From a virus, in IMG/VR virus record IMGVR_UViG_3300020205_000254, positions 1 to 22,030 of that record: DNA of 22,030 bases, one strand, 5' to 3'. The position numbers and the translations under genes were made by a program. A model generated the notes under the pieces. That model was not told where the DNA came from. It worked only from the letters and a program-made list of their open reading frames with translations, and made no database searches. The stretch's first letter is position 1. Every line of letters starts with the position of its first letter. This document shows, in pieces, positions 4,835 to 21,696 of this stretch.

Positions 4835-5289
4835 ATATTGCAAATGAAATGGCTCGATTTGATCTTAAGGATCGAGACTTTTATGACGATCTTTCTGAAG
4901 AAGAACAAAAGAAGTTTAGTCCTTATTTGATGATACGGTGGGGAGCCGCAGTGGAAGGTCCGGCAGAATTGCAAGCCTATTACTTAATGAGCTGTAACGA
5001 AAACTTAAATAAAAATTTCTTTGACATTAACACTACACAGCATAAAAAGTTGCAATGGTTATTGGCAACAACAGTAAGTCCAGGTATGGGCAAACAGTAT
5101 CACAAATGGTTAGCGGCAAAAAAGAAGGATACTGCTAATAACAAATCAGAAAAAATACTACGTGAACTGTATCCTAATGCCGCTCACGATGAAATTCAAT
5201 TGATGGCAGATTTAAACGACAAAGCAGAACTTCGAGAATTGGCAAAGAAACATGGATGGGATGATCGTAGAATCAAAGAGTACCTATAA
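4822..5289 (+). CDS. 62: Clamp-loader small subunit, gp62-like
   Basis: 155 aa. In T4, gp62 is the single non-ATPase subunit that joins four gp44 subunits to load the gp45 sliding clamp. The sequence fits the short marine-phage version: an acidic N-terminus, SPYLMIRWGAAV (34-45), then HKKLQWLLATTVSPGMGKQYHKW, where the L-x-W-L-L ... K-x-x-x-K-W layout matches the core helix and basic motif of gp62 relatives. The C-terminal third is helical (AELRELAKKHGWDDRRIKEYL). The gene for the gp44 partner is not in this window. The identification rests on pattern and length, not on alignment. It overlaps the next gene by 38 bp. Confidence 0.65.
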   Translation: MDKLNIANEMARFDLKDRDFYDDLSEEEQKKFSPYLMIRWGAAVEGPAELQAYYLMSCNENLNKNFFDINTTQHKKLQWLLATTVSPGMGKQYHKWLAAKKKDTANNKSEKILRELYPNAAHDEIQLMADLNDKAELRELAKKHGWDDRRIKEYL

Positions 5290-5962
5290 ATGTCGCTATT
5301 GTGAGAAATCCTTTAGCAAGGAGTCGACCTTGGTGGTGCATCTCTGCGAACCCAAGCGTCGGTGGCAACAGGAAAAAGAAGTAGGAGTACAATTAGGACT
5401 TAAAGCATATTTAAGATTTTATGAAATAACACAGGGATCAGCAAAGTTAAAAAACTATGAAGACTTTGTTAAGAGTTCTTATTACAATGCCTTTATTAAG
5501 TTTGGTAGATACAGTCAAGATATACGCTGTATTAACTATACTAATTATCTAGAGTGGCTGTTACGAAACAACAAGAAAATAGATAATTGGTGTAGCGACA
5601 GACTTTATGAAGAATGGTTACCAGGATACTTACAAAAAGAAGCAGTACAAGATGCATTAGAACGAGCACTAAAGGAAATGCAAGATTATGCAGAAGCTAA
5701 TACAGATCTTAAAAACGGTTTTACAGACTATTTTAGGTTTGGTCAACCTAATAGGATTCTCTTTCACATTACTAGCGGGAGGATTAGTCCTTGGGTTGTT
5801 TATAATTCCGAGAGTGGTGTGGCTTTTTTGGATGGACTGTCGGAAGAACAAATTCAAATAGTGTTGCCCTGGATTGATCCTGAGCATTGGCAACGTAAAT
5901 TTACGGACTATATGGCCGATACTGAATGGGTCAAGGATATATTAAAAAAGGCTGGACTATGA
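5252..5962 (+). CDS. C2HC zinc-finger protein of T4-like phage type
   Basis: 236 aa from ATG 5252; ATG 5261 is an alternative. A C2HC finger lies at residues 14-32: Cys14-x2-Cys17, aromatic Phe21, then His30-x-Cys32, within YKCRYCEKSFSKESTLVVH, followed by basic EPKRRWQQ. A helical, aromatic-rich middle (LKAYLRFYEITQG, YTNYLEWLL) and the helix EAVQDALERALKEMQDYAEANTDL come next. The end (FLDGLSEEQIQIVLPWIDPEHWQRKFTDYM) is also helical. A finger plus basic patch suggests nucleic-acid binding. Its 38-bp overlap with the gp62-like gene implies coupled translation. The role is unknown; a replication or transcription accessory factor fits the context. Confidence 0.75.
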   Translation: MDGMIVESKSTYKCRYCEKSFSKESTLVVHLCEPKRRWQQEKEVGVQLGLKAYLRFYEITQGSAKLKNYEDFVKSSYYNAFIKFGRYSQDIRCINYTNYLEWLLRNNKKIDNWCSDRLYEEWLPGYLQKEAVQDALERALKEMQDYAEANTDLKNGFTDYFRFGQPNRILFHITSGRISPWVVYNSESGVAFLDGLSEEQIQIVLPWIDPEHWQRKFTDYMADTEWVKDILKKAGL

Positions 5963-7340: not shown

Positions 7341-8294
7341 ATGAAAAAATTACTAGCCATATTCCTATTAGTGCCAATTCTAGCATTTGCTTGGGAACCT
7401 CGACGACCAGTTACAGTTGTATTTCCAAATGGTCCCGGTGCTGGAAATGAAATCAGCTTTAGATTTGTAGCCAGCATAGTAGAAAAGAAAACTGGTGCCA
7501 CGTTTGTAAGCGAATACAAACCTGGTGCAGATGGCAATATCGCCATGAATCATTTTGCCACTGTGCCTGCTGATGGGCATACTATTGCTGTACCGGCTTG
7601 CCAGAGCAACTGGGTGACTGGTGACATCTGGTACAGTAACATGATTCGATATGATGCTCAGGACTTTGAGCCCGTGGCCAATATTGCTCGTAGTCCACTA
7701 GCATTTTGGGCTCATCCCAGCAGTCCTATAAACACTCCACAAGAACTAGCAGAACTAATACACTCTCAAAAACGACCGGTCAATATTGCCATTGGTGGTG
7801 GCGGGCATCGACTGGCAATACAATATCTTGTTGATGCCTTACGGGTACCAGCCAATACGGTGTCAACTCCCATGTACAAAGGTCCAGCACAGGCCCTGCT
7901 AGATGTCCTAGGCGGTCATGTGGAATTTGGTGTGACTCCTGTCACAGTTGGATGGCCGCATGTGCAAGCTGGAAAACTAAAATTAATCGGTATCGCCAAT
8001 GAACAACCGTTAAAAGGACTAGAACGTGCACCATTGATGCGTACAGTTGCTCCAGGCTTGTCCATACATGGCTGTTGGAATATCGTATTACCCAAAGGCA
8101 CACCTGCTGATATACAGGCCTGGTATCGTGATCATTTTGTGCCGGCTATTAGAAGTGCCGAAGCCGGAGAAAAGTTTGCAGAAAACATGATGTTTATCAC
8201 TCCTGCAGAACACACACCTGCGGGTGTTAGGGCCAGCATGGCTCGGTTACGAGAGGTGTGGCAACCGGTTGCTAGAAAGATAAAACCTGAATGA
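7341..8294 (+). CDS. Bug/TctC-family periplasmic substrate-binding protein
   Basis: 317 aa with a clear Sec signal peptide (MKKLLAIFLLVPILAFA, cut near residue 17). It has the family's N-terminal pattern: PVTVVFPNGPGAGNEISFR matches the [IV]-x-[FY]-x-x-G-x-G-x-x-x-x-x-x-R motif, then VSEYKPGADGNIA and VPADGHTIAV. Its length equals the usual ~320 aa. Bug proteins bind carboxylates for TctAB-type transporters and are greatly expanded in Burkholderiales. No transporter membrane subunits are encoded here, so it would have to serve the host's. It is flanked by phage genes on the opposite strand. A sampled row has 47% GC (28 of 60), higher than nearby phage genes, which suggests recent host origin. 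The ligand cannot be told from sequence. Confidence 0.9.
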   Translation: MKKLLAIFLLVPILAFAWEPRRPVTVVFPNGPGAGNEISFRFVASIVEKKTGATFVSEYKPGADGNIAMNHFATVPADGHTIAVPACQSNWVTGDIWYSNMIRYDAQDFEPVANIARSPLAFWAHPSSPINTPQELAELIHSQKRPVNIAIGGGGHRLAIQYLVDALRVPANTVSTPMYKGPAQALLDVLGGHVEFGVTPVTVGWPHVQAGKLKLIGIANEQPLKGLERAPLMRTVAPGLSIHGCWNIVLPKGTPADIQAWYRDHFVPAIRSAEAGEKFAENMMFITPAEHTPAGVRASMARLREVWQPVARKIKPE

Positions 8295-11106: not shown

Positions 11107-11113
11107 ACTATGA
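11074..11113 (+). repeat. 40-bp promoter repeat, copy 1
   Basis: This 40-bp segment matches 12910-12949 at 33 of 40 positions by hand alignment without gaps. The last 16 bases, including the shared TATAATTAAACTATGA, are identical. Copy 1 spans the end of the primase gene and the start codon of the radical SAM gene. Confidence 0.85.
11075..11103 (+). promoter_or_regulatory. Sigma70-type promoter, leaderless, for the radical SAM-SDR pair
   Basis: TTGAGT (11075-11080), 17-nt spacer, consensus TATAAT (11098-11103). Six bases later comes the ATG at 11110, exactly where transcription should begin. Confidence 0.75.
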
Positions 11114-12249
11114 ATCCTAAAAAGAAGTTTTTTTTATTTAAACAATCCAAACATTTTTGTGCCGTACCATGGAACCATTTAAAAATTCACACATCGGGAG
11201 AAGTAACCACATGTGTGAATGGGCTATACCAGTTAGGAAATGTACATGATAATTCATTCAATGAAATTTTATCTAATCCAATATTACATACAATTAAAAA
11301 TAATGTAGTACAGGATTTGCCAGACATTAATTGTAAAAAATGTCAAACATTAGAAAACACAGAAGATTATTCATACAAATTTTTAAGAGATTTGTATAAT
11401 CCCATGTTTATAAAATCTACAGCGGACTATGATAGTAATACAGATTTTGTTCTAAACGGGGTAGATTTACATTGGGGTAGTACTTGCAATTTAAAATGTA
11501 TTACCTGTTGGGGAGAACAAAGCAGCTCAATTGCACAAGAATTAGGTGAACCAATTAGAACAGTATCTGCTGAGGCAGCAAATAGCACAATAGATTTTAT
11601 AGTCAAGAATCAAATCACACTTAAAGAAATATATATGAGTGGCGGAGAGCCTACATTAATAAAACATAATCTTAATTTATTAAAACAACTACGCAAAGAT
11701 TTAGACTTTACCATTCGAATAAACACCAATATGACTTTTATGGATAATAATCCAGTCATTAATGAATTAAAGAAATTTCCAAAAGTGTTATTTACGATCA
11801 GCGCCGACGCATTGACTAATAGATTTAACTATATTAGACGTGGCGCTGATTGGAAAAATTTTATATATAACTTAGAACAACTAAAAAAATTACATTTTGA
11901 CTGGAGAGTTAATTCAGTGTTTTTTGTAGGCACAGCATTGCATTTAGCTAATACTCAAGAATTTTTTATGAATAATTTTGAAATTAACGATTTCACAATT
12001 AATCAAGTTGGTATGGGGCACGATAGTATTAGATGCCGCAATCTTCCAATCAATGTAAAAGAGTTGGTAACGGATAAATTACAAACACATAGAGAAAAAT
12101 ATAAACAAAATATAAATTTATATGGACAATTAACAAATTGTATGAACGAAGTTACGCAACCCACTGAAGAATCGTATATAGCATTCTTTGATGACATTGA
12201 TAAGCGTGCCGGCACAAACTGGCGGCACATATTTACAGAACTCATATGA
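11110..12249 (+). CDS. Radical SAM enzyme with N-terminal twitch/SPASM-like cysteines
   Basis: 379 aa. The radical SAM cluster site is STCNLKCITC: Cys126-x3-Cys130-x2-Cys133, followed by the SAM-binding GGEP (178-181). Before it, Cys17 (FCAVPWNHL), Cys35 (EVTTCVNG) and Cys75/Cys78 (INCKKC) form a SPASM/twitch-like auxiliary cysteine set at the N-terminus, as in the phage and marine-bacterial twitch subfamily. Such enzymes use a 4Fe-4S cluster and S-adenosylmethionine to start radical chemistry. The substrate is unknown; a peptide, sugar or nucleotide is possible. The start is an apparent leaderless ATG. Sampled rows are 22% and 32% GC. The SDR gene follows with an ATGA overlap and may act on the product. 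Confidence 0.85.
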   Translation: MNPKKKFFLFKQSKHFCAVPWNHLKIHTSGEVTTCVNGLYQLGNVHDNSFNEILSNPILHTIKNNVVQDLPDINCKKCQTLENTEDYSYKFLRDLYNPMFIKSTADYDSNTDFVLNGVDLHWGSTCNLKCITCWGEQSSSIAQELGEPIRTVSAEAANSTIDFIVKNQITLKEIYMSGGEPTLIKHNLNLLKQLRKDLDFTIRINTNMTFMDNNPVINELKKFPKVLFTISADALTNRFNYIRRGADWKNFIYNLEQLKKLHFDWRVNSVFFVGTALHLANTQEFFMNNFEINDFTINQVGMGHDSIRCRNLPINVKELVTDKLQTHREKYKQNINLYGQLTNCMNEVTQPTEESYIAFFDDIDKRAGTNWRHIFTELI

Positions 12250-12949: not shown

Positions 12950-14385
12950 CAAAAGAATATTCAACCGATTTACAAAGATTGTTTTTAGAAATGATGTTAA
13001 CCGACGCACAAAGTTATGTGCGAGTACAAAACATTTATAATCCTGAAAACTTTGATCGCAGTCTTAGAGCTGTGGCAGAGTTTGTGAAAACACACAGTGA
13101 AGATCATAAGACCCTTCCTACATTTGAACAGATCAAAGCCACAACTGGAGTAGATCTTAAAGCAGTTCCAGACCTTGTTGATGGCCACTATAATTGGTTT
13201 ATGCAGGAATTTGAAGGTTTTAGTCGACGTATGGAATTAGAACGTGCTATTTTAAAAGCGGCAGACTTATTAGAAAAAGGTGACTACGATCCTGTAGAAA
13301 AATTGATTAAAGATGCAGTACAGATTAGTTTAACTAAAGACATGGGCACTGATTACTTTGCTGATCCGAGAGCACGTATTGACAAATACTTTAACAGTGG
13401 TGGGCAAGTAAGCACAGGTTGGCCCACTATGGATAAGATACTGTATGGTGGTATGAGCCGCGGCGAACTCAATATCTTTGCTGGCGGATCGGGCTCGGGT
13501 AAGAGTCTTGTTATGATGAACATTGCTCTTAGTTGGTTACAAGCAGGACTCAGTGGGGTGTATGTTACATTGGAACTCAGTGAAGAATTATGTAGTTTGC
13601 GTACAGATGCTATGCTTACAGGTATGGGAACCAAGGACATTCGCAAAGATGTTGACACTACCGAACTTAAAGTTCGTATGGTATCTAAAAAAGCTGGACA
13701 GTATAGAGTAAAAGCATTTCCAGCACAGAGCACAATTAATGATATTAGAGCATACTTAAAAGAAGTGCAAATACAAACAGGGATCAAAGTTGATTTTGTT
13801 ATGGTTGATTACTTAGACTTATTAATGCCAGTAAGTGTTAAAGTTAATCCCAATGACCAGTTTATTAAAGACAAATACGTAGCAGAAGAACTGCGTAACA
13901 TAGCACAAGAATTAAATGTGTTATTGGTTACAGCAAGTCAGTTAAATCGTAGTGCTGTAGAAGAAATTGAGTTTGATCATAGTCATATTGCTGGTGGTAT
14001 TAGTAAGATTAATACTGCGGATAACGTATTTGGTATTTTTACAAGTCGTGCTATGAAAGAACGTGGGCGGTATCAAATACAATGTATGAAATCTCGTAGT
14101 AGTACTGGAGTTGGTATGAAGATTGATTTAGAATACAATATAGAAACTATGCGTATTACTGATCCAGGGCCCGAAGGGCAAGAAGGGTATTTACAAGCAG
14201 GGGGTCCGCCCAAAGTTACTAGTATTATGAATCAAATTAAAGCCAGTACAACAGTAAATCAATTTGATGTAAAAGCCAAAGATGGGTTCAATCTAGAAAG
14301 AGATGCTGGGCCACCTCCAGGGAGTAGTCTTGAAAGCAATAAGTTAAAACAGATGCTTGCTGGATTAAAAAGTAAAACCGATTAA
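12946..14385 (+). CDS. 41: Replicative DNA helicase, gp41/DnaB-type
   Basis: 479 aa, close to T4 gp41 (475). The N-terminal ~150 residues are helical and correspond to the primase-contacting domain. The RecA-like domain begins at STGWPTMDKILYGGMSRGELNIF. Walker A is GSGSGKS (181-187); the glutamate of ATP hydrolysis is probably in VTLELSEE (207-214); Walker B is FVMVDYLDLL (284-293, Asp288); the sensor motif is TASQLNR (329-335). The Pro/Gly-rich C-terminal tail (GPPPGSSLESNK) may bind partners. It unwinds DNA 5'-3' as a hexamer ahead of the fork and works with the primase at 10072. Transcription starts from its own promoter, with an apparently leaderless ATG. Its end overlaps the minus-strand gene by 21 bp. 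Confidence 0.95.
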   Translation: MTKEYSTDLQRLFLEMMLTDAQSYVRVQNIYNPENFDRSLRAVAEFVKTHSEDHKTLPTFEQIKATTGVDLKAVPDLVDGHYNWFMQEFEGFSRRMELERAILKAADLLEKGDYDPVEKLIKDAVQISLTKDMGTDYFADPRARIDKYFNSGGQVSTGWPTMDKILYGGMSRGELNIFAGGSGSGKSLVMMNIALSWLQAGLSGVYVTLELSEELCSLRTDAMLTGMGTKDIRKDVDTTELKVRMVSKKAGQYRVKAFPAQSTINDIRAYLKEVQIQTGIKVDFVMVDYLDLLMPVSVKVNPNDQFIKDKYVAEELRNIAQELNVLLVTASQLNRSAVEEIEFDHSHIAGGISKINTADNVFGIFTSRAMKERGRYQIQCMKSRSSTGVGMKIDLEYNIETMRITDPGPEGQEGYLQAGGPPKVTSIMNQIKASTTVNQFDVKAKDGFNLERDAGPPPGSSLESNKLKQMLAGLKSKTD

Positions 14386-15438
14386 CTCACAAAATTCTGG
14401 CAGGTAGTTAACCATACAAATACCTTTTACTTCATCTTGTTTTTTGATTATTTTTAAAAATCTAGTAAAATCGTAATTGTCTTTGTCAGTGTGAGTGCCT
14501 ATAAAAAATTCTAAATCCTGTGATCGGCCACGTTTGCGAAATATTTCTTCTTTAACTGATTTGGGTAAAGCCCCGGGCCTAAAGTATGTGGGGTTAATAA
14601 CGGGATTATAATGATAATTTAACTTTTGTTCTTTAAACCAGCTAATAGTCTCATGATGATAAAGCACATTCATATTACTAGTAGTACTACTAACACTAAC
14701 ATTATCTGTAATAGTTCTAAAAAATTCTAAGTTTTCTAATAGAGTATCCCATGACAATGGATATCTTAGGTATTCAAATATTGGGCCCACTCCGTCAATA
14801 CTGACATTAAAATTTATATTTTTAAATTTTTTAAGTAGCTCTTTGTTATTATCACTTATATTAACTGATCCATTGGTTGTGACTGCAATAAAACATTTAG
14901 TGTTATTATTTTTAATTAATTGTTCAAGAATATAAAAATTTAACTTTTCATATAAAGGTTCGCCACCAACAAAATTTAACATGACTAACTCTTTAAAATT
15001 AAGATTTTCGTGAATGTCAGTCTTAGTCATGGATTTTATGGGTAGTGCAGTTAGATTCATTTTCTTTTCTAATGGTCCCCATGCACTTGATGGTCCAGAA
15101 TTACAAGTAACACAAGTAGAATTACAAGTGTTACTTGTAACATTTTTTACCATTATGGTTTTATATTTTCCTTGTATAACATCCTCTTCGATATATCTAA
15201 GGTCTTTATCCCAGTAAAAATCTAAAGCAGAGTTTTTAAGTTTACGATCACTAATTAGCCCAGCATCTTCTAGGTTCCAACACGCTGAGCAAAACGGTGA
15301 TCTTTCCTGATTCAGGATGCTACTTTTTATGGATTCTATGTTATAATTCTTAGGTAGTAAACAACAATGAGTTCCATATCGACGGTCAGTAGAATATTCG
15401 TACCCAAAAAACGGTAGAACACAAAAATAATTATTCAT
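14365..15438 (-). CDS. Second radical SAM enzyme with twitch/SPASM-like cysteines
   Basis: 357 aa on the minus strand. Core: NTCNSTCVTC gives Cys105-x3-Cys109-x2-Cys112, then NFVGGEPLYE with GGEP at 158-161. N-terminal cysteines at 6, 25/26, 50 and 53 (FCVLPFFG, THCCLLP, FCSACW) form the auxiliary set. It shares architecture, but little sequence, with the radical SAM protein at 11110, so it is not a recent duplicate. The inner part has the radical SAM strands VTTNGS and NVSIDGVG. Two sampled rows are 23% and 30% GC. The gene lies alone and opposite to its neighbours; upstream TATAAT and TATAAG sequences exist without good -35 boxes. The substrate is unknown; peptide or sugar modification is possible. 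Confidence 0.85.
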   Translation of the reverse strand: MNNYFCVLPFFGYEYSTDRRYGTHCCLLPKNYNIESIKSSILNQERSPFCSACWNLEDAGLISDRKLKNSALDFYWDKDLRYIEEDVIQGKYKTIMVKNVTSNTCNSTCVTCNSGPSSAWGPLEKKMNLTALPIKSMTKTDIHENLNFKELVMLNFVGGEPLYEKLNFYILEQLIKNNNTKCFIAVTTNGSVNISDNNKELLKKFKNINFNVSIDGVGPIFEYLRYPLSWDTLLENLEFFRTITDNVSVSSTTSNMNVLYHHETISWFKEQKLNYHYNPVINPTYFRPGALPKSVKEEIFRKRGRSQDLEFFIGTHTDKDNYDFTRFLKIIKKQDEVKGICMVNYLPEFCELIGFTF

Positions 15439-15514: not shown

Positions 15515-15766
15515 TTGCAAAAGAGAGCCCGCAGTATACTTGATGAATTAGATAGTATGCTAGTACACAAGGATCGTGAGAATCTTGTGGAAAGCCGCGC
15601 TAGTAATGTTATTGCTGGCGCAATTAATCTAATCAAATATATTCGTGAAAACTATGATCCTGTGCAGTCCGATGAGCTCGAACGTCGATTAATTAACAGT
15701 ATACGCACTCAAGAGCCAGAGAAATTTACTCGCGGAGTTAGGAGAATGCGTAGTGAAAATAAATGA
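15515..15766 (+). CDS. Small helical phage protein, unknown function
   Basis: 83 aa from TTG 15515, which has a good GGAG ribosome site at 15504-15507 with 7-nt spacing. Nearly all helical and strongly charged: RARSILDELDSMLV, ESRASNVIAGAINLIKYIRENY, DELERRLINSIRTQ, then a basic tail (RGVRRMRSENK). The type recurs in marine T4-like phages without known function. It is the first gene of a four-gene operon and overlaps the next by 14 bp. A scaffold, core or packaging-related role fits the late box, but nothing in the sequence proves it. Confidence 0.7.
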   Translation: MQKRARSILDELDSMLVHKDRENLVESRASNVIAGAINLIKYIRENYDPVQSDELERRLINSIRTQEPEKFTRGVRRMRSENK

Positions 15767-16562
15767 TATAGTTAACGAAGGTGTTGCATCGGGGTTTCTT
15801 CGTGGAGTTGGAGCAGCAGATACTGCAAACGCTGCAGACCGTTATAGTGATGCCCAGAGAAGAAACAACGCCCAAGGGCCAGACACTATGTCAACTGCTG
15901 ATACTCGTGCCAGTATAGCAAAAAACATGCCAAGCGATTTTATGCAACAGTTTAATCTCATTGACCCAGATTTAGGTATTGTAAAATATGGTAATACACA
16001 GTTCCAACGTGACGACAATGGCAAGTGGATTGATTATAGGACTGGTAAGCCTGCTCCTGGACGATTTATCCCTGCGTTAGATTCTACTAGCCCTCCAACA
16101 GTCCCGGGCGCCAAGACACCAAAATCAAACAATGGCTCAACTGTACCAGACTACAGCATTAAACGTAAAACAGTTCCTACATCTCCGGCTGTGCTTAAAC
16201 CAAACCCAGCTAGATCAGCACCAACACCATCTCCAGTGGCTGCAAATATCCCATCCGCGGATACAGCAGCAACTACTACAGATACTATAGAAACATTGCC
16301 GGACGGTAGTGTTAAATTGACTGACAAAAAAGGGCAAGCCTGGACTAAATCCACAACAGCACCTGGTTGGAAAGGTCCCGGGGGAGTATATATTCAAGGT
16401 GGTGCAGATTATGATGCACTTGAAAAAGTTGCCGCAGAATTGCAAACACAACAACCAAAAAAAACATCTAGTCTAATAGATCCAAAAACTGGACAACCAT
16501 TTGTATACGAAAGTATTGATCTTGCACAAGTTCTTTGGAATAAAATGAAAAGTAAACAATAA
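15753..16562 (+). CDS. Pro/Thr/Ser-rich late protein with T4-style capsid-targeting-like N-terminus
   Basis: 269 aa from GTG 15753 (GGAG at 15741-15744 as ribosome site). The N-terminus MKINDIVNEGVAS resembles the T4 internal-protein targeting peptide MKTYQEFIAEA: basic residue at 2, acidic-aromatic/aliphatic-aliphatic, then x-E followed by Gly or Ala. After a short folded-looking part (residues ~60-105) comes a low-complexity linker of Pro, Thr, Ser and Ala (~110-180: TSPPTVPGAKT, PNPARSAPTPSPVAA), then a basic-aromatic domain (GQAWTKSTTAPGWKGPGGVYI) and a helical tail. No enzyme motif is seen. Late box, operon and N-terminus suggest a head-internal or virion protein. Confidence 0.65.
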   Translation: MKINDIVNEGVASGFLRGVGAADTANAADRYSDAQRRNNAQGPDTMSTADTRASIAKNMPSDFMQQFNLIDPDLGIVKYGNTQFQRDDNGKWIDYRTGKPAPGRFIPALDSTSPPTVPGAKTPKSNNGSTVPDYSIKRKTVPTSPAVLKPNPARSAPTPSPVAANIPSADTAATTTDTIETLPDGSVKLTDKKGQAWTKSTTAPGWKGPGGVYIQGGADYDALEKVAAELQTQQPKKTSSLIDPKTGQPFVYESIDLAQVLWNKMKSKQ

Positions 16563-17353
16563 TGTATTATCTATTTGAAGGCGGCAACGCAATACCTACA
16601 AGTAGTCCCGTAAACCAGGAAGATGTTCCGCAGGTTATTGCTATTGCTAGACGTGAAATGCCACAACCATTATTAAAAAATTTACAAGCAGACATTGGTA
16701 GTGCAGGATATAAACAAGTACCCAGTGGCGATATTGACCTAATGGTTGAAGCACAAGATACAGTAGATTTATTTCAAACACAAGATAATCCCAAGGATCC
16801 AGTATTAGCCGCCAAGAAAGCAATGCAGACATGGTTTGCAGCCAAGGGTATTGAAGCTAATGTCAATGGACGTAATGTTAGTATCGGAATAAAATATAAA
16901 GCCAAAAACGGCAAGCCAGGATATGCTCAAGTTGACCTAATGGTTATACACGATGCCGCTATAGTTGCACCTTGGCATCAACACGGTCCACGTGGTATGT
17001 ATAAAGATGCTGGCTTTAAGGGACAACAGAACTTTCTTCTAATGGCCAGTATTGCTAAACATCTTAACTTAAAGTTTGATCCATTTGGTGCAAAATTAAT
17101 TAATCGTGACACTAATGCAGTTGTTGGCCGTACACGTAAAGAAGTTGCTAAGATCTTACTTGGCCCAAAAGCAAAAGAAGATTCGTTAAACAGCGTTGGT
17201 ACTATGCTAGCCGCCTTAGAAAACGATCCCGATCGAGAAGGTAAGTTAGCACAGGCTCGACAAGATCAAGCTAAAGGATTGTTGACACTTCCTGAAGCTG
17301 CACCTACTCCGGGCACAGCCGCCTGGTTTAGAAAAATGGGACACGTTGTATGA
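16562..17353 (+). CDS. Pol-beta-superfamily nucleotidyltransferase-like protein
   Basis: 263 aa, starting at TAATG overlap. The nucleotidyltransferase signature G-S-x(9)-D-x-D is present: Gly46-Ser47, then GDIDLMV with Asp57 and Asp59; the third metal-binding residue is Asp125 in AQVDLMVIH. The later helical region (NFLLMASIAKHLNL, RTRKEVAKILLG) fits the downstream domain. Family members add nucleotides to RNA ends, proteins or small molecules; the acceptor is unknown. The N-terminus MYYLFEGGNA has a L-x-E/G site like T4 prohead protease sites (I/L-x-E, cut before G/A). It overlaps the ligase-like gene by 4 bp, which suggests a joint function. Confidence 0.75.
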   Translation: MYYLFEGGNAIPTSSPVNQEDVPQVIAIARREMPQPLLKNLQADIGSAGYKQVPSGDIDLMVEAQDTVDLFQTQDNPKDPVLAAKKAMQTWFAAKGIEANVNGRNVSIGIKYKAKNGKPGYAQVDLMVIHDAAIVAPWHQHGPRGMYKDAGFKGQQNFLLMASIAKHLNLKFDPFGAKLINRDTNAVVGRTRKEVAKILLGPKAKEDSLNSVGTMLAALENDPDREGKLAQARQDQAKGLLTLPEAAPTPGTAAWFRKMGHVV

Positions 17354-18411
17354 ATTTAGATTTTATACAAACACTAATGGAAGCCGACGAAGGCCCACGT
17401 ATTGTTCATCCCGAAGATACTATATTTGATGGATCTGCTCGAGCTGGGCAATATGTGGAAGCATTGAAAGAAGTGATAAAAAATCCCGGTAGTGTTAGTA
17501 TTAAATGGGATGGCGGAATAGCATTAGTATTTGGTCGTAAGGCATCTGGAGAATTCTTTTGTGCTGACAAATATATGCCTAACAAAGGTGTATTTCCAAC
17601 AAGTCCAGAACAATGGATAGAGTATGATCGTGGTCGTGGTGCTAACCGTAATGACCTATATGCTAAAATTCAAACTGTGTGGGCCGGTTTAGAAGCCGCA
17701 GTAAAAGATCGTGCTACTTATAAAGGTGATTTAATGCACGTGGGTAAATTGCCTTTAGTAAATGGTATGTATGAATTTACTCCCACAACAGTAAAATATC
17801 GTATTCCTCCTAATAGTGCAATTGGACAATTAATTAAAGGCAAAGTTGGTGTGTTAGTTGTACATCAACGCGAAGGCCAGCCTTGGGACGGACAAACAGG
17901 ATTAGCCAATGGTGGCAACGTAGCAATTTTAAATCCTACTGCTGGAATTAAATTTCAAATAAATGATCCTGTACAACTAACTACAGGTGCAACACGAGTA
18001 GTAACACAGTATGGAGCTGTAGTTGATAAATTCTTTGCTGGTATAGACGGTGTTGCTAAAGCTGCAATTAAAAAGTATTTTAATCAGAAAATTACAGGTC
18101 AAACTAAAGAAGATATTGTTGAATGGCTACAACACAATGTTAGTGGCAAACAATTTAAACTACTAGTAGGCGAAAATCAAGGCGGATACTTATATAGGAA
18201 TCAGCAAGGATACGAAGCATTAAAAGCAGTATGGAATGCAATATATCAATTAAAAGTTGGACTAGCATCTCAGCTAGAACAACAGGTAACAGGATTTGAA
18301 CAATGGACTGGTGGACAAAAAGCCGGCGAAGGCTTTGTGGTAAATACTAGTCAAGGACTAATAAAATTAGTAAATCGTGGTGTATTTGGTCAAGCACACT
18401 TTAACAAATAA
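17350..18411 (+). CDS. DNA/RNA ligase-superfamily-like covalent nucleotidyltransferase
   Basis: 353 aa. The motif order of nucleotidyl-lysine enzymes is visible: motif I SIKWDGGIALVFGR with candidate adenylated Lys52 in KWDG (52-55); motif III-like YKGDLMH (124-130); motif IIIa-like VGVLVVHQ (166-173); motif IV EGFVV (327-331); and motif V-like GLIKLVNR (336-343). A long segment of ~150 residues between IIIa and IV is unusual for a classic ligase and may hold a helical insertion. The N-terminus MNLDFIQTLMEADEG contains L-M-E before Ala, a T4 prohead-protease-like site. It overlaps the nucleotidyltransferase gene by 4 bp. Sealing, capping or adenylation of RNA is plausible; the substrate and activity are unproven. 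Confidence 0.65.
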   Translation: MNLDFIQTLMEADEGPRIVHPEDTIFDGSARAGQYVEALKEVIKNPGSVSIKWDGGIALVFGRKASGEFFCADKYMPNKGVFPTSPEQWIEYDRGRGANRNDLYAKIQTVWAGLEAAVKDRATYKGDLMHVGKLPLVNGMYEFTPTTVKYRIPPNSAIGQLIKGKVGVLVVHQREGQPWDGQTGLANGGNVAILNPTAGIKFQINDPVQLTTGATRVVTQYGAVVDKFFAGIDGVAKAAIKKYFNQKITGQTKEDIVEWLQHNVSGKQFKLLVGENQGGYLYRNQQGYEALKAVWNAIYQLKVGLASQLEQQVTGFEQWTGGQKAGEGFVVNTSQGLIKLVNRGVFGQAHFNK

Positions 18412-18440
18412 GCTATAACATACCAATTTTTTCCAAATAG

Positions 18441-18448
18441 TATAAATA
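18441..18448 (+). promoter_or_regulatory. T4-type late promoter (perfect TATAAATA)
   Basis: Exact match to the T4 late box in an intergenic gap, 41 nt before the ATG at 18489. The ribosome site AAGGAG is at 18476-18481, 7 nt from the ATG. Confidence 0.85.
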
Positions 18449-18454
18449 ATTACA

Positions 18455-18466
18455 TGCGGGAACGCA
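18455..18466 (+). other. 5'-end hairpin with GNRA-type loop
   Basis: TGCG-GGAA-CGCA forms a 4-bp stem with a GGAA (GNRA) tetraloop. It starts 7 nt after the late box, so it should sit at the very 5' end of the transcript, where such hairpins protect mRNA. Confidence 0.45.
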
Positions 18467-18488
18467 CATTTAATTAAGGAGATTTAAA

Positions 18489-18920
18489 ATGGCAATTCAG
18501 ACAAGATACGCTGGTGATTCACAAGCCGTAAAAAACGTTGGTGTAACAACAACAAATGCAAACGCAATTCCAGTATTTACTGGTATCGCTGGCCCAATCA
18601 CAGCTTATAAATTAGGTAGTTTTGGTATTACAGCTAACTTAGCTGCAGAACAGATTACTGGTGGCGCTGTTGAAACAATGTTACGTGTAATTTCTGGTAA
18701 CGCTACAATATTAGGTTATCAATGTGACGTAGCTGGTGCTTCAGCACAGTTAAGCGTTCTAGTAGAACGTACTAGCTGGACAGATGCAACATTGACAACA
18801 GCTATTGTTGCTCTAGCAGGTGGTGTTGCTGCTGGTGCTAACATTGGTGCTGCTGCTAACATTTGGATTATGCCTACAGCAACAACTGTAACAAGTACAG
18901 GCGGTATCAAATTAGCTTAA
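18489..18920 (+). CDS. Putative abundant virion structural protein
   Basis: 143 aa. Beta-rich and almost free of charge, rich in Ala, Thr, Gly and Val, with Thr/Val strands ending in VTSTGGIKLA. There is one Cys and a few aromatic residues. It sits alone between a perfect late promoter with strong ribosome site AAGGAG and a strong terminator, the layout of a highly expressed monocistronic late gene. A decoration, head-fibre or tail component is likely; no family-defining motif is recognised. Codon choice is regular and shows many GCT/GGT/ACA codons, which also fits high expression. Not an enzyme by any visible motif. Confidence 0.65.
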   Translation: MAIQTRYAGDSQAVKNVGVTTTNANAIPVFTGIAGPITAYKLGSFGITANLAAEQITGGAVETMLRVISGNATILGYQCDVAGASAQLSVLVERTSWTDATLTTAIVALAGGVAAGANIGAAANIWIMPTATTVTSTGGIKLA

Positions 18921-18944
18921 TAGTTTAATAACTATAAACAAACG

Positions 18945-18969
18945 AGGCACTCTTTGTAGTGCCTTTTTT
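18945..18969 (+). terminator. Rho-independent terminator
   Basis: GGCACT (18946-18951) pairs with AGTGCC (18958-18963) around a 6-nt loop, followed by six T residues (18964-18969). It ends the transcript of the gene at 18489. Confidence 0.9.
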
Positions 18970-18976
18970 GTGGCCG

Positions 18977-18984
18977 CTAAATAC
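18977..18984 (+). promoter_or_regulatory. Candidate late promoter (CTAAATAC), near-leaderless
   Basis: CTAAATAC lies 7 nt before the ATG at 18992 and 7 nt after the terminator T-run. The same octamer recurs at 20523. Some promoter is needed here unless read-through occurs. Confidence 0.45.
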
Positions 18985-18991
18985 TAATACT

Positions 18992-19435
18992 ATGTCAGCA
19001 TCAAATTTACACGTCTATATTGGTTATACCTTAGTTGACATTACACGAACGGGGGTAACTCGTGATTCCATTGGCGGAGAGTTAGAACGAAATCAACATC
19101 GTAATTGGGAAACATTAATTCAATGCATTGGATTACGTACTCAACCACATCATATAAATGGCCCCGAATCTTATCTAGTAGAAAATATCAGCAGTTTAAA
19201 GTTTGGTGATTTTTATTCAGGAAGACCACAACAAGTTTGGACATGGTCTTGGGCAGTAGAACCAGCTGGCATCTATGAAGTTCCACCAGAACCACTGGGC
19301 GGACTTATGCAAGATTTTGAACAAGTTCCTATTATTGCTGGGCTAACAGAAACAGCACGTTTTATGTTGCCCATTTTCTATCCTTACGGTGCTATTAGAA
19401 ATATATACTTTGAACGGTATCTTGGCAAAGTATAA
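18992..19435 (+). CDS. Conserved hypothetical late phage protein
   Basis: 147 aa from ATG 18992. A GTG at 18959 is in frame but lies inside the terminator stem, so it is rejected. The sequence is rich in aromatic residues and Pro: HVYIGYTLVDITRTGVTR, ERNQHRNWETLIQCIGLRT, PQQVWTWSWAVEPAGIY, then RFMLPIFYPYGAIRNIYF. There is no signal peptide or enzyme motif. The style recalls small virion-assembly or neck/tail proteins of marine T4-like phages, but the function is unknown. No ribosome site precedes the ATG, consistent with a near-leaderless late transcript. The stop codon overlaps the late promoter of the next unit. Confidence 0.7.
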   Translation: MSASNLHVYIGYTLVDITRTGVTRDSIGGELERNQHRNWETLIQCIGLRTQPHHINGPESYLVENISSLKFGDFYSGRPQQVWTWSWAVEPAGIYEVPPEPLGGLMQDFEQVPIIAGLTETARFMLPIFYPYGAIRNIYFERYLGKV

Positions 19436-19438
19436 ATA
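19431..19438 (+). promoter_or_regulatory. T4-type late promoter (perfect TATAAATA)
   Basis: Second exact late box, overlapping the stop codon of the gene ending at 19435, followed by a ~90-nt leader before the ATG at 19532. Confidence 0.8.
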
Positions 19439-19458
19439 ATACTTGATGCTACAGCACC

Positions 19459-19493
19459 ATTAAGGCTCACTATTAAGGCACATTTAGGCTCAC
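19459..19493 (+). repeat. Three tandem 12-nt-type repeats in the leader
   Basis: ATTAAGGCTCAC (19459-19470), TATTAAGGCACA (19471-19482) and ATTTAGGCTCAC (19482-19493) are near-copies in tandem. They lie inside the untranslated leader and are too few and too short for a CRISPR array. Role unknown. Confidence 0.6.
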
Positions 19494-19503
19494 CCAAACC
19501 GCA

Positions 19504-19522
19504 TCGCTTAACAGGAAAGCGA
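19504..19522 (+). other. Leader hairpin with AGGA in its loop
   Basis: TCGCTT (19504-19509) pairs with AAGCGA (19517-19522) around loop AACAGGA. The stem ends just before the GAGA ribosome site; the AGGA in the loop is 15 nt from the ATG, so it may only weakly affect translation of the gene at 19532. Confidence 0.4.
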
Positions 19523-19531
19523 AGAGACACA

Positions 19532-19789
19532 ATGTCCTCTACAGAAATAGAAAAGAAAAGCCTTGAGGCGCACGTAGAATTATGTGCTGAAAGGTATGCG
19601 AACTTGGATAATAAACTTTCCAATCTTGAAACTCGTATGGACAAGTTAGAAGGTCATATTGTTGACATAAAAGACAGTCTATCGGGGAATGATAGTGGAC
19701 ACTACAAAACTCTAATCACTGTAGGAACAACCATATTAGGTGTATTAATCGCAGGATTAATTACAGTAATAGTTAACTTAGTAAAATGA
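19532..19789 (+). CDS. Coiled-coil + C-terminal membrane-anchored protein (holin/XhlA-like candidate)
   Basis: 85 aa. The N-terminal ~50 residues are a heptad-rich coiled coil (LDNKLSNLETRMDKLEGHIVDIKDSL); after a SGNDSGHYK hinge follows a single transmembrane segment of ~22 residues (LITVGTTILGVLIAGLITVIV) and a short NLVK tail. The layout, coiled coil then one C-terminal membrane helix, is that of XhlA-type phage lysis accessories and of some holins. A late perfect promoter (19431) and a long structured leader fit tight control of a lysis gene. A membrane-anchored assembly factor is the alternative. GAGA at 19524-19527 is the probable ribosome site. No endolysin gene is seen nearby. Confidence 0.65.
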   Translation: MSSTEIEKKSLEAHVELCAERYANLDNKLSNLETRMDKLEGHIVDIKDSLSGNDSGHYKTLITVGTTILGVLIAGLITVIVNLVK

Positions 19790-19995
19790 AAATAGTAGAA
19801 CTACTCAACAATGTGCAAATAGCCATTACTAATGAGCAAGCAGATCTGCTGGGTCGATTTGACCTAGAAAATGATGTATCAAAAGATGCTTTCAATGAAA
19901 GAGAGCAAGTAATAGCAAATCAACTAGTGATGCAGGATATCCTACATCGCGGTAATAATAATGGCACGATCACGTACAAGAAAAAAATCCAGTAG
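19786..19995 (+). CDS. Small conserved hypothetical phage protein
   Basis: 69 aa, ATGA overlap with the coiled-coil gene. It consists of two helical parts, IVELLNNVQIAITNEQADLLGRF and DAFNEREQVIANQLVMQDIL, followed by a short basic beta tail (GTITYKKKIQ), a pattern like a small winged-helix or ancillary subunit. The type is common in T4-like marine genomes without known role. The next gene begins inside its last 35 bases in another frame. Since both sit in the late unit, a virion-assembly role is possible but unproven. Confidence 0.7.
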   Translation: MKIVELLNNVQIAITNEQADLLGRFDLENDVSKDAFNEREQVIANQLVMQDILHRGNNNGTITYKKKIQ

Positions 19996-20494
19996 TAAAA
20001 TAACCAGCCCTGAAATTAAACAAATAGCTACTATTGCTACTGATTATATCAAGCATTGGACCATGCTTGAGCTCAGCAAACTACAACAAGCAAATCAAAT
20101 TCCTATTTGTATACCAACTGCAAGTGGATACCGCATTGGGGTATATTTGTTAACAATAAAATCAGACAATGCCTGCGAACTTTATAATGCCTACCACGAA
20201 TTGATGCACGTTTTTGAAAGCAAAATTAGTGCAGTACTATATACAATATACATTATAAAACAAAAATATTCATTTGCTGATGAAATATTAGTGTTAGACA
20301 AACAAATAAATAAATCATATATAGAATCTTTAATATTACAACGAACTATAGATCGAGCAAGATTAAATAAGCTATATGATATAGTAGATATTAGGCAATC
20401 TAGACTAGACATTTCACAACGGCAACTAACACAGGCTCGCAATGAAATGGCAACAATATATAAAAGAGCCAAGATTAACCGAGTTTGGGAATAG
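19961..20494 (+). CDS. Helical basic phage protein, unknown function
   Basis: 177 aa, starting within the previous gene (35-bp overlap). The basic N-terminus (ARSRTRKKSSSK) could bind nucleic acid; the rest is nearly all helix, with the segments ATIATDYIKHWTMLELSKL, AYHELMHVFESKISAVLY and a long helix from about residue 120 to the end. The overlap crosses a run of seven A (19981-19987), but the frames differ by +1, so a -1 slip would not join the two proteins. No signal peptide, membrane segment or enzyme motif is seen. Function is not recognised. Confidence 0.65.
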   Translation: MARSRTRKKSSSKITSPEIKQIATIATDYIKHWTMLELSKLQQANQIPICIPTASGYRIGVYLLTIKSDNACELYNAYHELMHVFESKISAVLYTIYIIKQKYSFADEILVLDKQINKSYIESLILQRTIDRARLNKLYDIVDIRQSRLDISQRQLTQARNEMATIYKRAKINRVWE

Positions 20495-20522
20495 CTAAAG
20501 AATTAAAAAACTATTTGATAGA

Positions 20523-20530
20523 CTAAATAC
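20523..20530 (+). promoter_or_regulatory. Candidate late promoter (CTAAATAC)
   Basis: Same octamer as at 18977, 25 nt before the ATG at 20556 in a short intergenic gap; GGGAA (20543-20547) may be the ribosome site. Confidence 0.5.
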
Positions 20531-20555
20531 ATGATACAGTTTGGGAATAAAAACT

Positions 20556-21266
20556 ATGAGACTCTCTGAAATGCACACAGCAGTAACACCACAAAAGATT
20601 AATAAAGTCATGGAAAGCCGATTTGGGTTTACTATTGATTATGATAACTTAACTTATGCTAAAGCACAGCGTTTAAGCAAAGCCTTAAACGAAAACATCG
20701 GTGCCATTAAGCGTAGTTTTGGTGCCCACACCGCTGAAAAGAATGCCAAGTACATGGAATTAATGTTAGTTAAAGAAGGCATTGATCGTTGGTTAAACAG
20801 CGAACAAGGATTGTTTGAATCTGAAATGGGTCGTAGCGAAGCAGTACTAGCCGCCAAAGACATTGTTGACAGCGTTCAAGACATGTTAGAAAAAATTAGC
20901 AAAATTCAAAATGAACAAGTACCTGCATTAATTGACACTATTCGTGATCAAATTGGTGGTGAACAAGCAGAGCAGTTTAAAACAACTATCAGCCCATGCT
21001 TAACAGAATTATATACTGCATTAAGTAGCGCACGTGAAACATCTGATACTAGTGTACGTGCATTAGCAGGAGAAGAAGTTGCAAATACAATGGATATGGG
21101 CTTAGGTGGTGATCAATTACCTTCTATGGCTGACACTGGAATGGGCGATGCTGGTCTTGATGCTGGCAGTGATTTTGATAGCGACATGCCTCCAGCAGAT
21201 GACGCCTTTGGTGCAACTGACTCGGCAGTAGGTGGCCAAGAAGAACTAGGACGTGAACGTCGTTAA
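20556..21266 (+). CDS. Putative prohead-core/virion-associated helical protein
   Basis: 236 aa from ATG 20556 (a TTG at 20541 is in frame but lies in the ribosome-site region). The N-terminal 160 residues are highly charged and helical with heptad repeats (YMELMLVKEGIDRWL, AAKDIVDSVQDMLEKISKIQNEQ). The C-terminal ~60 residues are disordered, acidic and rich in Gly, Asp, Ala and Met, with repeats such as DAGLDAGSDFDSDMP, ending EELGRERR. A coiled helical rod plus acidic tail is the kind of composition found in phage scaffold or core proteins, and it is followed by a gene with a capsid-targeting-like N-terminus. The assignment is inference; I cannot match it to gp22 or another named protein. 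Confidence 0.6.
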   Translation: MRLSEMHTAVTPQKINKVMESRFGFTIDYDNLTYAKAQRLSKALNENIGAIKRSFGAHTAEKNAKYMELMLVKEGIDRWLNSEQGLFESEMGRSEAVLAAKDIVDSVQDMLEKISKIQNEQVPALIDTIRDQIGGEQAEQFKTTISPCLTELYTALSSARETSDTSVRALAGEEVANTMDMGLGGDQLPSMADTGMGDAGLDAGSDFDSDMPPADDAFGATDSAVGGQEELGRERR

Positions 21267-21267
21267 T

Positions 21268-21696
21268 ATGCGTATTCGCGATATTATACTTGAAGATTTA
21301 GATCAGCCCGACATTAACAATAATGATAAGGCTGATGCTCACGGTTACAATGACATTATGAATGCTCTTGTAACTACACAGTCCCAATTAGCATTTACTC
21401 ATGCAATTCCTAGAGAAGAAACAAGCCAGATTGTTAATATGGTTAACTCGGTGCGTGGCGACAATTCATTTCGTTGGACAGATTTAAATGATGCAATCAA
21501 ATCTGGACAATTTAAAGATGTAGTGGAAAAAATTGAACCAGATGACAAAACTGGTATAAACTATGTTTACTTTGTTACACCCGACACACAAGTATCAGCA
21601 GACGCTGCTGGTCAAAACGCTGGTGGTGTTGGGTTTAGTGCAAACAACTCCGACAAAGTAGTAAGCCAAATGGCCAAACGTGCAGCCGGCACTTAA
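21268..21696 (+). CDS. Hypothetical protein with capsid-targeting-like N-terminus
   Basis: 142 aa from ATG 21268, one base after the previous stop; an in-frame GTG at 21253 lies in the upstream gene. The N-terminus MRIRDIILEDL closely parallels MKINDIVNEG of the protein at 15753: basic residue 2, D-I-[IV]-x-E at 5-9. The body is mixed, with the helical segment YNDIMNALVTTQSQLAF and a DDKTGINYVYFVTPD beta part, then a Gly/Asn/Ala-rich end (AAGQNAGGVGFSANNSD). No enzyme motif is visible. It is co-transcribed with the helical acidic protein upstream. A head-internal protein is the best guess. Confidence 0.65.
   Translation: MRIRDIILEDLDQPDINNNDKADAHGYNDIMNALVTTQSQLAFTHAIPREETSQIVNMVNSVRGDNSFRWTDLNDAIKSGQFKDVVEKIEPDDKTGINYVYFVTPDTQVSADAAGQNAGGVGFSANNSDKVVSQMAKRAAGT

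Follow-up and report, generated by a model that had tools for sequence, protein, structure and literature searches.

Can the proteins that a jumbo phage carries in its head be recognized from their first few residues? The locus that raises this question lies in IMG/VR record IMGVR_UViG_3300020205_000254, which we analysed over its whole length of 22,030 b (hereafter, the window) and which derives, as a 22 kb fragment, from an uncultivated jumbo phage related to T4. A first-pass annotation had drawn attention to four of its proteins, named here by their start positions 15753, 16562, 17350 and 21268, whose N-termini recall the capsid-targeting peptides of T4 internal proteins; all four N-termini were found exactly where it had placed them (Table 1). 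We propose that those of the 15753 protein, the 16562 nucleotidyltransferase and the 17350 ligase-like protein are, with good probability, removable propeptides of the T4 internal-protein type that would target their proteins to the capsid and be cleaved by a gp21-type protease, leaving a cargo to be injected. For the 21268 protein, membership in this set is possible but less certain.

Four N-termini resembling T4 propeptides

T4 propeptides of varied length end in L/I-x-E, and their targeting and processing residues are partly separate, according to the available part of PMC9026906. The four predicted peptides, of 6, 9, 9 and 11 residues, fall within the T4-type range (about 6–19 residues in the available parts of the sources). 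Against the fuller rule, [IL]xE before Ala, Gly or Ser, the 16562 (LFE/G) and 17350 (LME/A) proteins fit strictly, better than the annotation had held; its description of the fit as partial is right for the other two, with Val at P3 in 15753 (VNE) and Asp after the Glu in 21268 (ILE). The L/I-x-E ending itself is present in the 16562, 17350 and 21268 proteins and absent from the 15753 protein; given its Val, we describe the 15753 peptide as working like a T4-type propeptide and do not class it as a strict member.

Among 31 window genes listed by hand (four starts slightly off; the entry listed as 20559 truly starts at 20556), the strict pattern was matched by 16562, 17350 and, upstream, 5252 (MDGMIVES). 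A relaxed form adds 15753, 21268, 6514 (IQEN) and an unlikely match at residue 19 of the 20559 entry. The 5252 gene (5252–5962) lies outside the island described below and its product has a weak C2H2 zinc-finger match; its strict site reflects chance or another cargo.

Four N-termini in one window would by themselves be weak evidence. The gp41-like helicase of the window is 47% identical to its counterparts in Agrobacterium phage Atu_ph07 and Pseudomonas phage PA5oct, and a helicase search yielded at least 80 viral loci (L numbers) with helicases 74–84% identical to that of the window and with stretches of gene order common to many. Among the matches listed, the closest longer than 200 kb was G001 (L037; 288,815 b; helicase 81%). 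Its gene order is that of the window across the region of interest, except that the 15753 position holds a different protein, starting MKIKDVIQES.

Conservation of the predicted cleavage site

In the ligase-like family, 38 of 46 distinct 22-residue segments preceding the HPED/HLED anchor contained [IL]xE[AGS], and all 46 contained the relaxed form, where shuffled segments gave expectations of 3.2 and 11.3; the 46 are related to one another and do not represent independent events. Control windows elsewhere in the same proteins (n = 1,379) matched in 2.8% (strict) and 5.1% (relaxed) of cases. The count omits L023 and L024, which have no anchor, and L002 (contig end) and L083 (frame opening only 10 residues upstream), which have fewer than 12 residues before it. 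The strict Glu stands 5–12 residues ahead of the fixed anchor; P2 is occupied by nine different residues, whereas P3 and P1 scarcely change and Ala, Gly and Ser predominate at P1′. The DUF6267 protein of cyanophage P-SSM4 begins MPNKHLEHPED, close to the predicted mature end.

The nucleotidyltransferase family gave a similar picture, with [ILV]xE[AGS] kept in 33 of 36 distinct segments. The three misses are a truncated contig end (L001), a protein starting MGGKVF (L086) and one matched only in an inner domain (L025). In an alignment of 19 stand-alone proteins, Glu6 is among 17 invariant columns, together with Gly and Asp residues of catalytic type. The homologues in Atu_ph07 (E 6.1e-16) and PA5oct (gp253, E 8.9e-12) begin MGGRAF and MSGNAF; the first residue of these and of the L086 homologue coincides with the predicted mature end or lies a few residues from it, and in none of the three was an in-frame [IL]xE found in the stretch running from the last upstream stop to the start.

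Chance resemblance in a few genes might be argued from the window itself, where only two of the four cases obey the strict rule and the unrelated 5252 protein obeys it too. Conservation over the 46 and 36 orthologous segments lies far above shuffles, and the motif is enriched in the island (below); we consider chance extremely improbable, and with relatives included the recurrence is well beyond it, though less uniformly in the genome-wide counts (below).

The site also survives gene fusion at the domain joint. Both enzymes form one protein in L012, L013 and L016, where the joint reads LNE/AAPSPRIPHPED, LSE/AAPSPRIPHPED or LME/AAGPRIPHPED. A 15753-type protein is joined to the nucleotidyltransferase through LTE/SQNVFKD in L008 and L010, and other fusions (L095, L100, L097, L090 and L086) have the joints IVE/A, LVE/A, IIE/A, LIE/N or LKE/D. 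These joints bear on the view that the N-terminal likeness carries no protein signal and is a by-product of a shared translation-start context or of exchange of 5′ gene ends. MKINEI-type starts are indeed very alike among neighbouring genes, some of which resemble adjacent duplicates (L087 has MKINEILAES twice). Yet the site is kept inside fused proteins, where it has no start codon, P2 varies between nearly constant P3 and P1, the window copies differ in codons (for example, ATA versus ATT for Ile), and flanking families almost all lack the motif. We therefore hold such a by-product to be very unlikely.

A variable island enriched in the motif

The genes from 15753 to 18411 likely constitute a variable cargo island, whose steadiest members are the nucleotidyltransferase and the ligase-like enzyme, which would be delivered together. 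Gene content varies between border proteins of 83 and 143 amino acids, and in 55 closed-island loci we counted 196 island genes in 24 families. The strict motif marks 12 of 24 island families versus 1 of 163 flanking families (Fisher 1.2e-11), and the relaxed motif 13 of 24 versus 12 of 163 (1.7e-7), a family being scored as motif-bearing if at least half its members carry it. Families were clustered on residues 26 onward, and fusions merge both enzymes into one family; the count omits loci without a right border and families mixed between island and flank, and loci on the same contig (such as L005 and L049) were not merged. Typical island starts are MKINEILAEA, MKIKDVIQES, MRAREFVIEGG and MKSTEFITES. 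Judged by these families, the same short peptide stands on mature proteins that appear unrelated.

The 15753 position reads MKIN[ED][IV][ILV]xE[AGS] in many relatives, and its protein matched nothing in Pfam or PHROG at E ≤ 0.01. Proteins of the 15753 type also have a C-terminal stretch in common, SIDLAQVLWNKMK in the window (16500–16559) and EGIDLADILWRKMK at a fusion joint (L008:8295-10004), which is perhaps a second functional element.

The 21268 position carries the relaxed motif in 23 of 37 distinct genes and the strict motif in 11. We downgraded the 21268 protein because the remaining 14 lack the motif, although in L042, one of the 14, a gene lying 138 bases downstream may have been picked in error, and dropped the idea that its tag is of equal strength. 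A hidden Markov model (HMM) search found no sequence homology between the 21268 protein and PA5oct gp246, so the two are linked by position only.

Of 20 other tagged or neighbouring proteins scanned against Pfam, three matched over the curated cut-off: a GNAT acetyltransferase (L025), a cytidylyltransferase-like protein (G003) and DUF6321 (G001). Five such proteins were scanned against PHROG; four gave no match and one, from Atu_ph07, matched families of unknown function.

Motif excess and head proteins in related genomes

The genome-wide motif search that the annotation had proposed was run on relatives, and the motif recurs. We counted the strict motif with Glu at residues 5–14, taking as expectation the mean of 300 within-protein shuffles. 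The excess was clear in G001 (14/351 observed versus 5.0 shuffled, z 4.3), G003 (19/429 versus 8.2, z 3.9), Atu_ph07 (25/825 versus 12.4, z 3.6) and P-SSM4 (9/219 versus 3.2, z 3.7), modest in XaC1 (16/534 versus 9.0), weak in T4 (9/253 versus 5.4, z 1.5) and PA5oct (9/421 versus 6.8, z 0.9), and absent from phiKZ (5/350 versus 6.1, z −0.5). In every genome but G001 and P-SSM4, at least one shuffle reached the observed count. Reversed and Asp-, Gln- and Lys-swapped control motifs gave z from −2.0 to 2.2 in all eight genomes. The sole negative-control genome was phiKZ; having its own prohead protease with an S/A-x-E motif, it is a control for the [IL]xE[AGS] motif and not for processing. Start calls matched the annotation for 326 of 345 PA5oct genes (with a lower length cut-off). 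The nine strict matches of T4 comprise ipII, ipIII, gp22, gp24, gp2 (DNA end protector) and four others; gp22 and gp24 are noted as gp21 substrates in the T4 record, and the available parts of PMC5694885 and PMC9026906 give ipII and ipIII as such.

The annotation had also tied its reading to a gp21-type protease. None was found by a Peptidase_S77 search of the 22 kb window, but one is present above the cut-off in syntenic G001 and in four others of 11 related records (G003, PA5oct, XaC1 and Atu_ph07). In all five proteins the H, SSRG and D columns of T4 gp21 align, these being presumably the catalytic triad. Protease, putative scaffold and capsid protein are direct neighbours in G001; Pfam confirmed the first and the last, whereas the scaffold is so called from its position alone, its PHROG having no known function. 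The putative scaffold contains [IL]xE[AGS] eight times in G001, G003 and PA5oct alike, and several of these sites correspond in position; in the capsid proteins, such sites occur near residues 7 and 19 in all five jumbo phages. The same pattern recovers the T4 capsid site LTE/A at 65.

The two candidate enzymes

Two tagged proteins resemble enzymes of DNA or RNA repair, with activities predicted from sequence and models. At E ≤ 0.01 the nucleotidyltransferase matched neither Pfam nor PHROG families, and no PDB sequence match was better than E 0.15. Its model (predicted local distance difference test, pLDDT, 83.9; residues 1–7 below 50) best matched DNA polymerase lambda in Foldseek (E 3.5e-6) and matched a minimal viral Pol X in VIA (Z 9.7, 157 residues, 3.2 Å). 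Gly46, Gly56, Asp57, Asp59 and Asp125 are invariant in the 19 aligned sequences. The predicted structure thus has the DNA polymerase X fold, with the catalytic Asp residues in place. A 500-amino-acid island protein of L025 (L025:13128-14630), starting MKIREVIVES, combines a GNAT acetyltransferase match with a stretch (GDIDLAV) matching the nucleotidyltransferase profile, and is possibly another enzyme fusion.

The ligase-like protein matches DUF6267 (PF19782) with 96.8 bits, over the curated cut-off of 27. K52-x-D54-G55, E327-G328 and K339 are invariant in 25 aligned sequences; we take KxDG, EG and K to be ligase motifs I, IV and V. Both alignments consist of hand-picked stand-alone proteins, leaving out fusions and L086 and, for the ligase-like protein, L001 (unknown bases). 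Its model (pLDDT 88.6; residues 1–16 below 50) gave no Foldseek match at E ≤ 0.001. Among the VIA matches listed, 49 of 50 were RNA or DNA ligases or ligation complexes, at Z 5.4–7.1, below the advised 8 and in a range also reached by unrelated models. The model therefore resembles nucleic-acid ligases, less surely than the 16562 protein resembles Pol X, and is compatible with either RNA or DNA as substrate. PA5oct gp256 is weakly linked to the ligase-like protein (HMM E 0.087; hhalign probability 33.5%), and no paper found in the open-licence PubMed Central (PMC) literature names DUF6267. In P-SSM4, a gene annotated as cytidyltransferase (L169:3938-5089) adjoins the DUF6267 gene, and its product starts MKKFSAFLKEAQ, close to the T4 internal-protein peptide.

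Mass-spectrometry notes in PA5oct and points against the proposed propeptides

Electrospray ionization tandem mass spectrometry (ESI-MS/MS) notes in PA5oct offer virion evidence by proxy. They are present for gp247 (counterpart of 20556), gp246 (21268 position), gp258 (15753 position) and gp253 (nucleotidyltransferase), and absent for gp259, the counterpart of the 83-amino-acid protein. The strict motif occurs in 5 of 93 detected proteins versus 3 of 269 others (p 0.029, marginal), coding sequences below about 60–65 amino acids being left out. We do not lean on this test, as p 0.03 is reached by the strict form only.

Several observations weigh against the proposed propeptides. The Val at P3 of 15753 and the Asp after the Glu of 21268 depart from the T4 rule, and 14 of 37 genes at the 21268 position have no motif. 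No S77 match was found in six of the 11 related records (G002, of 354,098 b, and five contigs of 57–104 kb). The motif excess is weak in PA5oct and in T4 itself, and single shuffles equalled the observed count in G003, Atu_ph07, XaC1, PA5oct and T4. In PA5oct the relaxed motif does not separate detected proteins (10/93) from others (19/269; p 0.18), and gp256, the weak ligase-like candidate, has no ESI-MS/MS note. The detected proteins include ribonucleotide reductase, thymidylate synthase and FtsH, so that they are not a clean list of head proteins, and gp253 is detected yet has no propeptide, so that the tag is not always needed.

This last observation would suit a peptide that targets the virion without being cleaved, or proteins that are ordinary structural parts. 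In T4 the residues for targeting are largely distinct from those for processing, and one mutation stops processing and not targeting (available part of PMC9026906). Processing is favoured over this alternative, which we consider fairly unlikely, by the near-fixed P3 and P1 with mostly Ala, Gly or Ser at P1′, by distant homologues that begin at or near the predicted mature end, and by the poor order of residues 1–7 and 1–16 in the two models, though low order is common for N-termini generally.

Proposed route of the tagged proteins

Collectively, the capsid-targeting reading of the first-pass annotation is supported for 15753, 16562 and 17350, where the site is kept while P2 drifts, is kept in fusions and marks the starts of distant homologues, and is weaker for 21268; we judge the predicted tags of the first three to be real. 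The tagged proteins would be synthesized late, and their first 6–11 residues would bind the prohead scaffold core. The S77 protease would then cut after the Glu of [ILV]xE, a position we infer because of site conservation, fusions and homologue start sites. The mature proteins would stay in the head through packaging and be delivered into the host along with the DNA. Loading, cleavage and injection are predictions from comparative sequence evidence.

A further suggestion, which we offer as tentative and rather doubtful, is that the pair forms a virion-borne repair kit. A gap-filling Pol X-like enzyme and a ligase, in some cases translated as a single polypeptide that the head protease separates, would be injected with the genome to mend nicks, gaps or cut RNA at once, before phage gene expression, possibly as counter-defence, and the island would serve as a delivery slot in which other enzymes can be exchanged.

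If the proposed propeptides are true, a four-residue rule applied to raw sequence would list injected proteins of a large, mostly uncultured group of jumbo phages, the Pol X-like and ligase-like enzymes would be delivered ready-made, and the peptide would offer a portable tag of natural origin with which to load proteins into phage heads.

Features of the window and neighbouring observations

Table 1 Predicted propeptides and genes of the region, in window positions.
Feature	Positions	Strand	Basis or remark
Predicted propeptide MKINDIVNE of the 269-amino-acid protein, cut before Gly10	15753..15779	+	Start GTG
Predicted propeptide MYYLFE of the nucleotidyltransferase, cut before Gly7	16562..16579	+	Start ATG
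Predicted propeptide MNLDFIQTLME of the ligase-like protein, cut before Ala12	17350..17382	+	Start ATG
Weaker candidate propeptide MRIRDIILE, Asp next	21268..21294	+	Start ATG
83-amino-acid protein, left island border	15515..15766	+	phrog_11854 virion structural protein, E 1.6e-14
269-amino-acid fast-evolving predicted head cargo, first island gene	15753..16562	+	GTG start
263-amino-acid DNA polymerase X-like nucleotidyltransferase	16562..17353	+	Invariant residues, structure matches
353-amino-acid DUF6267 ligase-like protein	17350..18411	+	PF19782, E 2.3e-27
143-amino-acid protein without signal, right island border	18489..18920	+	
Homologue of PA5oct gp247	20556..21266	+	phrog_14154; HMM E 3e-23
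142-amino-acid protein, possible head cargo	21268..21696	+	Same position as PA5oct gp246 (MKIKDILVES)

Elsewhere in the window, 7341–8294 encodes a TctC-type solute-binding protein (PF03401, E 2.1e-24), and the helicase is flanked by two radical SAM proteins (11110–12249 and, on the minus strand, 14365–15438), one with a SPASM domain.

Two further groups of proteins were noted in relatives. In Atu_ph07, nine tandem diverged paralogues (L103:21467-29127; 17–38% identity to the first) all begin M-x-W-x-Q-L-x-E; with their invariant YRG, S and E residues they presumably recall an ADP-ribosyltransferase. A scan of one paralogue gave no match in Pfam and, in PHROG, matches to families of unknown function. 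In G003, a 454-amino-acid protein (L153:8495-9856) without Pfam or PHROG matches starts MRIIDLLTEA and continues with YHYTNLDAAAKILTTG, a stretch that we likewise take to recall an ADP-ribosyltransferase. T4 Alt is an ADP-ribosyltransferase, and the Atu_ph07 paralogues are possible counterparts of it.

Comparison with known systems

The predicted tags resemble those of T4 IPI–III and Alt in their short N-terminal peptide ending in L/I-x-E, in the gp21-type protease of relatives and in the diverse cargo behind a conserved peptide (available parts of PMC9026906, PMC3012670 and PMC5694885), and the island starts MRAREFVIE/G and MKSTEFITE/S resemble T4 MKTYQEFIAE/A. They differ from T4 in the phage group, in a Pol X-like and ligase-like cargo, in the occurrence of Val at P3 and in cargo fusions with an internal site. 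As in Alt, an enzyme would follow a very short N-terminal propeptide, which in Alt has six residues (ITE-6) in the available part of PMC5694885 and seven in that of PMC9026906; unlike Alt, the proteins here match other enzyme folds.

In P1 DarB, as proposed here, an N-terminal peptide, the first 30 residues, loads a protein into the phage head (available part of PMC9024508). Jumbo phages of the phiKZ type, with an S80 protease, have head proteins cut after Glu and proteins injected with the DNA (available part of PMC13282480), but their motif is S/A-x-E (available part of PMC9026906) and [IL]xE[AGS] is not enriched in phiKZ. Several propeptides of the phiKZ relative SPN3US exceed 100 residues (available part of PMC5694885), unlike the short ones predicted here.

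We found no report of the tag in PA5oct- or Atu_ph07-like phages in the open-licence PMC literature, including the available parts of PMC6892783 (on a PA5oct relative) and of the jumbo-phage review PMC13282480, which has 0 occurrences of 'internal protein', 'capsid targeting' or 'prohead protease'. The proposed mechanism is of a kind already known from T4. As far as searched, novelty lies in the phage group, the enzyme pair, the variable island and the fusions that have an internal site.

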